From assembly GCA_944321005.1 (NCBI GenBank), contig CALUJT010000007.1, forward strand, positions 1 to 21,274: a DNA stretch of 21,274 bases, read 5' to 3'. This DNA is from an uncultured Atopobiaceae bacterium. Its GTDB lineage: Bacteria; Actinomycetota; Coriobacteriia; Coriobacteriales; Atopobiaceae. How positions within the stretch are numbered: position 1 is the first letter of the stretch; every line of letters begins with the position of its first letter. A program made the position numbers and the translations under genes. The notes under the pieces are model-generated. The model did no database searches. It was not told the DNA's origin and saw only the letters and a program-made list of their open reading frames with translations. Shown one piece after another: positions 9,743 through 21,274 of the stretch.

Positions 9743-9805
9743 GGGACGCGGCGGCGACGTTGCTGCCGCGCGGTTCTTCTCGCCGCGCGCTTGCTGCCCC
9801 TGCGC

Positions 9806-9875
9806 AATCACCATGTTTCTCCGGACAAAATCGGGGCGTCGAGGGCCTCTGTCTGTCTGGAGAAACATGGTGATT
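9806..9875. repeat. Inverted repeat, 22-bp arms
   Basis: The arms 9806-9827 (core CCATGTTTCTCCGGACA) and 9854-9875 (core TGTCTGGAGAAACATGG) are reverse complements with one mismatch, around a 26-base loop. It starts 63 bases after the NlpC-like gene's stop. It has the same build as the other long-armed palindromes here, but its arms differ in sequence. Confidence 0.75.
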
Positions 9876-9904
9876 GATGACGGCCCGCCTGAACGGTCTG
9901 CCGC

Positions 9905-9981
9905 TTCGTTCATCGCGCTCAAGCGACCATATTTGGCGCCGGTGGACCGCGCAAACTGGTCGTCTGAGCGCGATGAACGAA
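9905..9981. repeat. Inverted repeat, 25-bp arms
   Basis: The arms 9905-9929 and 9957-9981 (outer cores TTCGTTCATCGCGCTCA and TGAGCGCGATGAACGAA) are reverse complements except for two adjacent mismatches. The stem can continue inwards (TTTGGCGC with GCGCAAA) apart from a small bulge. It lies 29 bases after the previous inverted repeat and upstream of malic enzyme. Confidence 0.75.
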
Positions 9982-19115: not shown

Positions 19116-19919
19116 CTAGGGCACGAGCGCCAGCGCGGCGAGAAGGGCCACGAGGCCCAGGGTCAGCGCCATCGCCACGCCCTCGTGGACGCCCACGCGC
19201 TGCTCGTGGAGGTGCGTGCGCCCCGATCCGCCCTCGTAGCAGCGGGCGTCGAGTGCGCGGGAGAGGCCGTCGGCGTGGCGCAGGCCGCTCGCGAGAAGTG
19301 CCACGACCACGGGCACGACGGAGCGCACGCGCTGGACGGGGCCGCCCTCGTCGAAGGCGCCGCCGCGCAGGGACTGGGCGTCGATGATGGCGGAGGCCTC
19401 GTCTGCCAGGGTTGGGACGAAGCGCATCATGAGCGAGAAGACCATGGCGATCTCGTGGCCCGGCAGGCCCAGGCGCGAGAGCGGCGAGAGCATGCGGTCG
19501 AAGGCGTCTGCGAGCTGCGTGGGCGTGGTCGTGAGCATGATGAGCGAGCCCGCAACGAGCGCCAGGGCGAAGCGGGCGGTGTAGAGCGCCGCCGCGCGCA
19601 GGCCGCCCTCCGTGACGGAGAGGGGGCCGAGCGCGGCCACGACGTCGCCCGTGTGCACGAAGACCAGGTTGAAGAGCGAGAGCACGGCGAGAAACACCAG
19701 GAGAGGCCGGACGGACGCGAGCACGCGTCCGGCGGGCACGCGCGCGGCGGCCAGCGCGCCGGCCACGAAGGCCGCGGCAGCAAGGAGCTGGGGAAGGCTC
19801 GATACGCAGAAGATCGCCACGAGCGCCACGAGCGTGCAGACGAGCTTGACGCGGGCGTCGAGCCTGTGGACGGGGGAGTCCGCGGCAAAGTACTGTCCCA
19901 CCGAGATGCGAAGCGCCAC
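19116..19919 (-). CDS. ecfT: ECF transporter transmembrane subunit
   Basis: A 267-residue membrane protein, the T-component that joins the two ATPases to a substrate-binding S-component. Hydrophobic helices lie at about 25-60, 68-92, 108-130, and at the C-terminus (MALTLGLVALLAALALVP). The two cytoplasmic coupling helices that grip the ATPases are marked by Ala-Gln-Ser-Leu-Arg-Gly-Gly near 182-188 and DARCYEGG near 225, variants of the family's X-R-G motifs. The GTG start at 19917-19919 directly follows the ecfA TAG, with GGAGGTGAGG as ribosome-binding site, so the two are translationally linked. No S-component is in the window, so the substrate (vitamin or metal) is unknown. Confidence 0.92.
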   Translation of the reverse strand: MALRISVGQYFAADSPVHRLDARVKLVCTLVALVAIFCVSSLPQLLAAAAFVAGALAAARVPAGRVLASVRPLLVFLAVLSLFNLVFVHTGDVVAALGPLSVTEGGLRAAALYTARFALALVAGSLIMLTTTPTQLADAFDRMLSPLSRLGLPGHEIAMVFSLMMRFVPTLADEASAIIDAQSLRGGAFDEGGPVQRVRSVVPVVVALLASGLRHADGLSRALDARCYEGGSGRTHLHEQRVGVHEGVAMALTLGLVALLAALALVP

Positions 19920-21274
19920 CTACCTCACCTCCGCGACTTGACAAAGGGACTGTCCCCTTGTCAAGTTGGCGACGAGCTCGTCGGTGGTGATGGGGTCGCC
20001 GAGCTCCGGCCAGCCGCGGCGCTCCAGCTCGCGCGCCACGCGCAGCGAGCGCGGGATGCCGAGCCCGCTCTGGGTGAGCCGCGGCTCGCTCTCGCGGGAG
20101 AAGACCTCGCGCGGCGTGCCCACGGCGACGAGGCGCGACTGGTCGAGCGCCGCCATGCGGTCGCAGCGCGCGGCGTCCTCCATCGAGTGCGTGACCTGCA
20201 CGAGCGTGATGCCCTGCCCGCGCAGGCGGGCGAGCACGCGCCGCAGCATGGCGCGGCCGCGCGGGTCGAGGCCGGCGGTGGGCTCGTCGAGCACGAGGAC
20301 GCGCGGCTCCATGGCGAGTATGCCGGCGAGCGCGCAGAGGCGCCGCTGCCCGCCGGAGAGCTTGAAGGGCGAGGCGCCGCGTCGCCCCGCAAGCCCTACG
20401 AGCTCGAGCGCGTGCGTCACGCGCCGGTCGACCTCCTGCTCGGGAAGGCGCAGGTTGCGCGGGCCAAACGCCACGTCCTTCTCGACCGTCTCGGCGAAGA
20501 GCTGACGCTCGGGGTGCTGCATCACGTAGCCGATGGCGCGGCGCGCGGCCTTGCGCCCACGGCGGGATGAGGTGTCGTTCCCGTCCACGACCACGCGGCC
20601 GCGGTCCGGGACCTCGAGTCCGCAGAGCAGGCGCAGCAACGTGGACTTGCCGGAGCCCGTCTGGCCGATGATGGCCAGCGAGGACCCCTCCGCCACCTCG
20701 AGGGACACGTCGTCGAGGGCGGGCACGCCGCGCCCGTAGGAGAAGGACGCGTGCTCGACCTGCAAAATGGGGGCCTGCGAATTGGGGACGTGTTTTTTCG
20801 TGCAGACAGAACGGGACAGGCCCGTCTCCTTGGTTGGATGCGGCGAGTTGGGATCGACGCATCGTTCGGGCCTGTCCCGTTCTGTCTGCACGAAAAAACA
20901 CGTCCCCAATTCGCAGAGCTCGTCGAGAAGGGCGGGCTCGCTACAGGTCCAGGGGAGGCCCAGGCGTTGAGAGAGGTGTGCGGCGAAGGGCACCTCAAGG
21001 CCAAGCTCGGAAAGCTCGGCGCCGCAGGAGAAGACCTCCTCGGGCGCTCCCTCCAGGGCGACGCGTCCGTGGTCGAGCACGATGACGCGGTCCGCCTCGA
21101 GGGCCTCCTCCATGAAGTGAGTCACGTGGACGAGGGTGGTGCCCGCCTTGGCGAGCCTCCCCATCACGCGCAGAATCGCGGCGCGCCCGCGCATGTCGAG
21201 AAGCGAGCCGGGCTCGTCGAGCACGAGCACCGCGGGTTCCATGGCGAGCGCCCCGGCGATGGCCACGCGCTGCT
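19920..21274 (-). CDS. ECF transporter ATPase with two fused ABC domains, 5' end outside window
   Basis: About 450 codons of a two-domain ATPase that powers ECF vitamin/metal uptake. Residue numbers count from the GTG at 21266, which is internal; the preceding QQR belongs to the first domain's signature loop. The first domain shows Walker B VLVLDEP, D-loop SLLD and the switch His in VHVTH. A linker of about 50 residues follows. The second domain (from about 168) is complete: Walker A GQTGSGKST, Q-loop GYVMQHPE, signature LSGGQ, Walker B VLVLDEPTAGLD and switch QVTH. The linker, about residues 117-164, is encoded by the palindrome at 20775-20916, and the C-terminal TRGQSLCQV lies in another palindrome (19936-19966). 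The stop abuts the ecfT start. Confidence 0.95.
   Translation of the reverse strand, partial: QRVAIAGALAMEPAVLVLDEPGSLLDMRGRAAILRVMGRLAKAGTTLVHVTHFMEEALEADRVIVLDHGRVALEGAPEEVFSCGAELSELGLEVPFAAHLSQRLGLPWTCSEPALLDELCELGTCFFVQTERDRPERCVDPNSPHPTKETGLSRSVCTKKHVPNSQAPILQVEHASFSYGRGVPALDDVSLEVAEGSSLAIIGQTGSGKSTLLRLLCGLEVPDRGRVVVDGNDTSSRRGRKAARRAIGYVMQHPERQLFAETVEKDVAFGPRNLRLPEQEVDRRVTHALELVGLAGRRGASPFKLSGGQRRLCALAGILAMEPRVLVLDEPTAGLDPRGRAMLRRVLARLRGQGITLVQVTHSMEDAARCDRMAALDQSRLVAVGTPREVFSRESEPRLTQSGLGIPRSLRVARELERRGWPELGDPITTDELVANLTRGQSLCQVAEVR
19936..19966. repeat. GGGAC palindrome at the ecfA/ecfT junction
   Basis: ACTTGACAAAGGGAC (19936-19950) and GTCCCCTTGTCAAGT (19952-19966) are 15-base inverted copies with one mismatch around a single T. 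It encodes the last residues of the ECF ATPase (TRGQSLCQV) and ends 17 bases before the ecfT start, so an mRNA hairpin here would sit just upstream of the ecfT ribosome-binding site. It is closely related to the element at 11293-11317. Confidence 0.8.
20775..20916. repeat. 50-bp-arm perfect palindrome read in frame as the ecfA linker
   Basis: The arms 20775-20824 and 20867-20916 are perfect 50-base reverse complements around a 42-base loop. The arms contain GGGGACGTG, a T6 run, GTGCAGACAGAA and GGGACAGGCCCG. The whole 142 bases lie inside the ECF ATPase gene and remain open in its frame, encoding about 48 residues between the two ABC domains (ELGTCFFVQTERDRPERC, then TGLSRSVCTKKHVPNSQ). Confidence 0.9.

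Follow-up and report, generated by a model that had tools for sequence, protein, structure and literature searches.

A transposase-associated palindromic repeat in the interdomain linker of EcfA in an Olsenella/Thermophilibacter-like bacterium

The window, a stretch of 21,274 nucleotides from an uncultured Atopobiaceae bacterium, carries a perfect palindrome within the coding frame of ecfA. We regard it as quite probable that this palindrome, termed type A here, is a REP/TIR-type doublet linked to a RAYT-like gene, that it lies in frame in a disordered linker of EcfA, and that it took over this position from an element of a different type, type B. The host is Olsenella/Thermophilibacter-like, as the nearest named records among the ecfA relatives are Olsenella and Thermophilibacter. 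In the following, G, C, and L numbers denote genomes, contigs, and loci, respectively, and the genome of the window is G000.

The palindrome in ecfA

The relevant features of the window are:

19116..19919, minus strand: ecfT-like transmembrane component, downstream of ecfA (TIGR02454, 90.2 bits, below the cut-off of 111.8)
19920..21272, minus strand: ecfA, fused double-ABC energy-coupling-factor ATPase (TIGR04520, 373.2 bits, cut-off 315, in two stretches)
19936..19966, unstranded: type E palindromic repeat with 15-nt arms and one mismatch, encoding the C-terminal tail of EcfA
20760..20774, minus strand: likely right-end remnant of an older type B element, reading GCCCCCATTTTGCAG on the coding strand, where the sister L031 reads GTCCCCATTTTGCAG
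20775..20824, unstranded: type A palindrome arm 1, the 3' arm in the ecfA message, 50 nt, 100% complementary to 20867-20916
20825..20866, unstranded: loop, 42 nt
20867..20916, unstranded: type A palindrome arm 2, the 5' arm in the ecfA message, with a 37-nt core identical to that of an element in G010

An earlier note on this DNA had described a perfect palindrome with 50-nt arms at 20775-20916, in frame and encoding most of the interdomain linker. Both statements are correct. The arms are 100% complementary with 42 nt between them, and the inverted-repeat score of the linker is 50, compared with at most 9 among 50 shuffles of the same linker. The ecfA frame is open across the palindrome, which encodes residues 120-166 of the 450-residue EcfA fragment; the frame ends at the contig end, with the N-terminus (5' end) of EcfA outside the window. 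Of the four open frames listed, ecfA alone has a GC pattern by codon position (0.75/0.49/0.90) that we judge to be coding-like. All six reading frames of the type A arm are open.

The structure of EcfA has been predicted from 31 sequences with a mean pLDDT of 88.3. Residues 133-164, inside the element-encoded segment, fall below 50, while the first residues of the element prolong a predicted helix. The linker is predicted to be disordered, low pLDDT being no more than a sign of disorder.

The type E motif of the ecfA tail is the motif that flanks the RAYT-like gene of L006. The palindrome score of the tail, 12, equals the control maximum of 12 and is not above it. The ecfA tails of several relatives look repeat-derived too, the strongest being that of L047 with a score of 33. 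Elsewhere in the window, a further perfect palindrome with 42-nt arms, a 5-nt spacer, and GGGGACAGGG cores is found at 211-299, and two neighbouring, apparently intergenic inverted repeats lie at 9805-9876 and 9905-9981 (23 nt, 96%; 34 nt, 82%).

The type A family and the RAYT-like genes

Type A is a dispersed repeat, as the earlier note had supposed. The genome of the window (2.24 Mb in 294 contigs, 85% complete) contains 62 BLAST pieces of the element, both strands counted, and 35 matches to the strict type A core motif, GGGGACGTGTTWTTTC. The strict core occurs in 14 of the 60 genomes searched, all of them among the 31 genomes of the window's genus, and the reversed control of the pattern occurs in none of the 60. 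The unit is ~46 nt long, and its dispersed copies are found both as singles and as inverted pairs, as in transposase-flanking REP/TIR elements. Phage and plasmid records gave no match to the element, nor did viral contigs to one exact type A pattern. By a crude criterion, only the ecfA copy lies in a frame with coding-like GC among the 25 places examined in the window genome. On contigs C111, C151, C84, C222, and C51 of G000, type A copies lie at most about 70 nt from the contig ends (for example C111:7418-7449 of 7451). Such copies suggest that the repeats probably break the assembly and that the copy number is underestimated.

Four Y1_Tnp genes of the window genome score above the Pfam cut-off. 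The gene on C57 (PF01797, 41.9 bits, cut-off 23) has inverted type A copies on both sides, 92% complementary over 49 nt, which is the arrangement of REP/TIR elements, where a Y1_Tnp gene of the genome is enclosed by inverted repeat copies. Each of the four genes is flanked by its own type of inverted repeat: type A on C57, type E on C95, type C on C213, and another type on C161. With the NCBI model for REP-associated tyrosine transposases (NF047646), the four genes score 61.7 to 78.4 bits, all below the cut-off of 80, and they are therefore named RAYT-like here. The transposase protein of L008 contains NHVHLL and AVRYIHDNP, read by eye, which we take to be the HUH motif and the catalytic tyrosine motif of the family. 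Next to the C57 transposase gene, at L008:953-1001, a type A copy overlaps the stop codon of a gene that is presumably diacylglycerol-kinase-like.

Each of the 32 RAYT loci examined has flanking inverted repeats scoring at least 15, a result obtained without shuffles as a control; nine loci were hand-picked, two of these for type B motifs beside the gene. Type B flanks the RAYT-like gene in L160, L161, L163, L164, and L166, and type C does so in L007, L149, L156, and L162. In its tails, the type B element of the linker is similar to the two ends, left and right, of the type B element that carries the transposase. In the window genome, the type B motif is found at none of the four RAYT loci despite 24 type B core matches genome-wide, in an assembly that is 85% complete.

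A REPIN consists of two inverted REPs with a short spacer and acts as one unit, and the type A doublet is built in the same way. RAYT-type genes flanked by terminal inverted repeats have been described as TIRtrons or TIRYT (PMC3733652). To the extent of the sections consulted, type A resembles them in that a tyrosine-transposase gene lies between inverted repeats that carry no GTAG tag, and in that the repeats also occur as singles and dimers. The absence of GTAG from the 50-nt type A arm sets type A apart from the GTAG REPs. Types B, C, and E carry GGGGACAG, fitting the GGGGWSAS consensus given in those sections, whereas the outer motif of type A, GGGGACGT, does not fit it, and the host in the present case is a coriobacterium. 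A text search of PMC3733652 for Atopobium, Olsenella, and Coriobact gave no matches, and literature searches brought up no description of repeats of this kind in Olsenella or its relatives.

The EcfA linker across relatives

The EcfA alignment comprises 110 rows, including the window. Many rows are the same genome twice, leaving 82 distinct linkers with that of the window included. The palindrome score is at least 14 in 20 of the 82 and at least 16 in 18 of them, while none of 555 control windows elsewhere in the same ORFs reaches 14 (maximum 12). Three types recur in the linker within the window's genus, and each of them also flanks some RAYT-like gene:

Type A: window, L032, L038, and L045 (degraded)
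Type B: L031, L033, L034, L035, L040, L043, L044, and L046
Type C: L037 and L042

The linkers of L048, L050, and L051 resemble decayed type B, and five more palindrome-positive linkers come from relatives that are more distant, at 53 to 55% identity. The linker of L084, which is the same as that of L055 and scores 14, resembles GC-rich sequence and not a repeat. The two type C elements are identical over 79/79 nt; their flanks match at 557 and 585 of 600, a comparison too weak to test constraint. Other GC-rich palindromes are seen at the same linker in the more distant relatives L097, L104, and L105, and the linker of L107, also more distant, has a palindrome too. The linker of L126, a metagenome-derived and more distant relative, contains a 43-nt perfect inverted repeat with a 109-nt loop, which has the appearance of the linker's own coding sequence copied in inverted orientation.

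A tree of 36 EcfA rows was built without the linker. On this tree, the window (type A) and L031 (type B) are sisters with support 100/96, as are L032 (type A) and L040 (type B) with support 99/87, and the type C pair is placed among the type B carriers. The four type A carriers require four changes, with no root state inferred; the counts are of changes without direction, and the scatter of the A labels, like that of the B labels, is comparable to the scatter after shuffling. In the window and in L032, the type A element has its outer ends in common with type B, and the 15-nt B-like sequence after the window's element is similar to the end of the sister's type B element. Type A most likely replaced type B at the ecfA linker at least twice, in the window and in L032. 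For the window, this conclusion is based on the type B element of the sister together with the retained 15-nt B-like remnant. With type B in the sister, the type A copy postdates the split of the two. As the tree gives no direction, the view of type B as the older state draws on the shared loop, on the linkers that look like decayed type B, and on the 15-nt remnant. The G012 genome, whose linker has switched to type A, has no exact type B core, while its sister on the EcfA tree, G022, has 48.

The equality of the arms has been examined for both types. In eight type A pairs of the window genome, the arms within a pair differ by a mean of 1.75 core mismatches, compared with 5.8 between loci, and none of 20,000 random re-pairings is as low; two further pairs, L018 and L028, were left out of this comparison. 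With its 11 core mismatches, L015, among the eight, shows that pairs decay as well. In 11 orthologous type B or decayed type B linkers, two-sided changes are found in 11 of 30 palindrome pairs (20 such cells). None of 500 shuffles is as high on the two-sided measures, although related sequences can exceed such shuffles, and slid structures give 0 to 4 pairs. For a long-hairpin alternative, 11 of 31 pairs have two-sided changes and 26 of 500 shuffles are as high on the measure of further pair types. In eight species, the left type B unit has 2 G-U cells of 120 compared with 112 Watson-Crick cells, and the right unit has 10 G-U and 20 unpaired cells of 120.

For one change in the linkers a source can be seen. 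The GCACGTT variant of the G010 linker occurs 16 times in G010, two of these in the linker itself, while the count in every other genome searched lies between 0 and 3, and the type B transposase gene of G010 has the variant too. These observations suggest that copying from other copies probably contributes, besides any arm-to-arm correction. The earlier proposal of recent insertion or active homogenisation is therefore retained in two parts: the type A copy appears recent by the sister comparison, and the older type B elements have the two-sided compensatory changes. For the type A copy itself, the equal arms may reflect either homogenisation or youth.

Other sites, rival readings, and implications

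Type A-like elements are also found at a second ABC-ATPase gene. On contig C33 of G010 (L169:1875-2003), an ABC ATPase has an in-frame N-terminal extension encoded by a type A palindrome, whose 49-nt arms are perfect and which lies after the start codon; the ATG of the ATPase gene overlaps the stop codon of a FecCD permease. Seven orthologues of the ATPase N-terminus were inspected, of which G013, G014, and G012 are type A-like, G006 has a type B unit, and G002, G001, and G011 have none. In 20 genomes of the genus and 11 others, the pattern with the GAACGG core variant, which changes FW to ER in the ecfA frame, is confined to three places: ecfA of G000, ecfA of G012, and G010 C33. All three loci in the 20 genus genomes lie in open ABC-ATPase frames, and two of them, in different species, have identical 37-nt cores. 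Since the copy in G010 is probably related to that in G000, the three loci do not count as three independent cases.

In G012, contig C12 (L193:1492-3792) has a single ORF of 766 residues with FecCD and ABC_tran domains. An A-like doublet lies inside this ORF, with 41-nt arms at 2577-2617 and 2729-2769 (88%) and a loop of 111 nt. At the seven other loci inspected, including that of G010, the permease ORF ends ahead of the ATPase, and the two genes are read in different frames. We infer that the doublet made the permease-ATPase fusion of G012, although the single ORF may also stem from a wrong base in the assembly.

For two type A sites that lie between genes in the window genome, five other genomes each were compared, of seven searched. 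At six of the ten places (2/5 and 4/5), a palindrome beyond all 200 shuffles is present at the same site; five are of other types and one is type A-like (G012, second site). In the sister G009, neither site shows a clear palindrome (its score is reached by 8 and 3 of 200 shuffles).

The earlier note also proposed that the element had joined two separate ecfA genes, pointing to an insertion of about 142 nt, which is not a multiple of three. The probability of this explanation is practically nil. Both domains (at least 70% of each) are present in 109 of the 110 rows, the remaining row, L138, being masked by N there, so that in close relatives the domains are joined with or without a palindrome in the linker, and the candidate was rejected. 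The length of 142 nt is uninformative on ancestry, since the linker segment of the window exceeds that of L031 by 54 nt (18 codons), as expected if an older element was replaced. The alignment indicates that the ecfA fusion is older than the element, though it may not be universal; outside the family, there are short matching ORFs, some of them adjacent (for example two places each in G037, G050, and G055), that may be separate genes. The idea of the element as a gene joiner fails for ecfA but seems to apply elsewhere, given the A-like doublet that links permease and ATPase in G012. An assembly artefact is also extremely improbable. The fragmentation of the assembly into 294 contigs at 85% completeness and the type A copies at contig ends would allow for one, but in other assemblies an element of this class occupies the same codons, and identical core arms recur at another locus. 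L032, whose linker is the same as that of L060 (Olsenella sp. SW781), carries at this position a 50-nt palindrome that is likewise perfect but different, and the core arms of the G010 element at another locus equal those of the window over 37/37 nt.

Template switching at a REP already present in the linker, with one arm copied back as its complement, would give a perfect palindrome without doublet transposition. The perfect arms of the window, the closeness of arms within the eight type A pairs, and the L126 repeat are all consistent with such a local origin, and correction of imperfect palindromes has been discussed for nematomorph mitochondria in the part of PMC6649704 consulted. On the other hand, the sister has type B and no single type A unit, and the 37/37-nt core is shared with another species, which argues that the type A sequence came from elsewhere. 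We consider such a local origin rather unlikely, while the second arm of the palindrome may be explained by template switching. It is less probable still, and in our view improbable, that the palindrome is kept for a hairpin role in the ecfA message, for example to slow ribosomes between the domains or to protect the RNA. The predicted fold is very stable (-113.9 kcal/mol, z -18.18), and the compensatory changes in the type B linkers agree with such a role. However, 62 of the 82 distinct linkers score below 14, further pair types are no more frequent than in shuffles (312 of 500 as high), and no structured-RNA match at Rfam gathering scores was found in the window. The scarcity of G-U cells in the left type B unit is more like DNA homogenisation than RNA selection, a weak argument because of the G-U and unpaired cells of the right unit.

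According to the preferred reading, takeover by a transposase-linked doublet, type A is, or was, presumably moved by a RAYT-like (Y1_Tnp, HUH/tyrosine) transposase. EcfA would tolerate the doublet in the disordered linker between its two ABC domains, and type A would have displaced an older type B doublet at the same site, with the outer ends of type B kept. Resident palindromes may attract newcomers, via targeting or via recombination at shared ends, and the arms may stay equal via template switching or copying from other copies. The likely rule is tolerance, in which selection at the protein level would keep the frame open and the linker soluble; a benefit to the transporter is no part of this reading. 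A more far-reaching proposal, which we put forward only tentatively, is that intragenic palindromes act as landing pads. RAYT families would then compete for the same in-frame positions at the borders of ABC ATPase domains, where each new element would take the place of the previous one in frame, and the encoded peptides would be ready-made linkers able to build gene fusions, with coding-compatible variants spreading between species.

Several elements of this picture are already published, to the extent of the sources as consulted: intragenic REPs, TIR-flanked RAYT-type genes, and in-frame palindromic elements (PMC3733652, PMC10969869). In the consulted sections of PMC3733652, REP dimers within open reading frames encode extra peptides, and recB of two Xanthomonas species has different REPs at about the same site. 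The present case is similar in both respects, dimers adding peptides and different REPs at one gene site, and differs in that one linker is reused by three RAYT-flanking types, with a remnant and a comparison between sister species. Rickettsia palindromic elements, as portrayed in the passages of PMC10969869 and PMC3733652 drawn on here, are about 150 bp long and lie in frame in unrelated genes. The parallel drawn by the earlier note is a fair one as to the way of working; the likeness in size (~150 bp) and in-frame insertion is one of description. In the same passages of PMC3733652, RPE-4 and RPE-6 of R. conorii are placed among the CGTC repeats and said to be without a dedicated transposase, whereas type A flanks one. 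The coding palindromes of nematomorph mitochondria are likewise perfect inverted repeats kept in genes, for which arm conversion has been proposed (PMC6649704); there, however, the arms encode conserved protein regions, and the consulted part of that source makes no mention of a transposase-linked repeat family. What is new is a single coding linker that is occupied serially, in frame, by three RAYT-flanking repeat types and compared on a species-level tree.

REP elements take their name from an extragenic location, while here one protein linker records three transposase-flanking types. With this record, a species tree can be used to put the targeting and turnover of these poorly understood elements in order. 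It seems that the EcfA linker is rewritten by small mobile repeats while the gene stays intact. The second locus, in G012, suggests that the repeats also make gene fusions, and the origin of a linker from mobile DNA can be traced stepwise.
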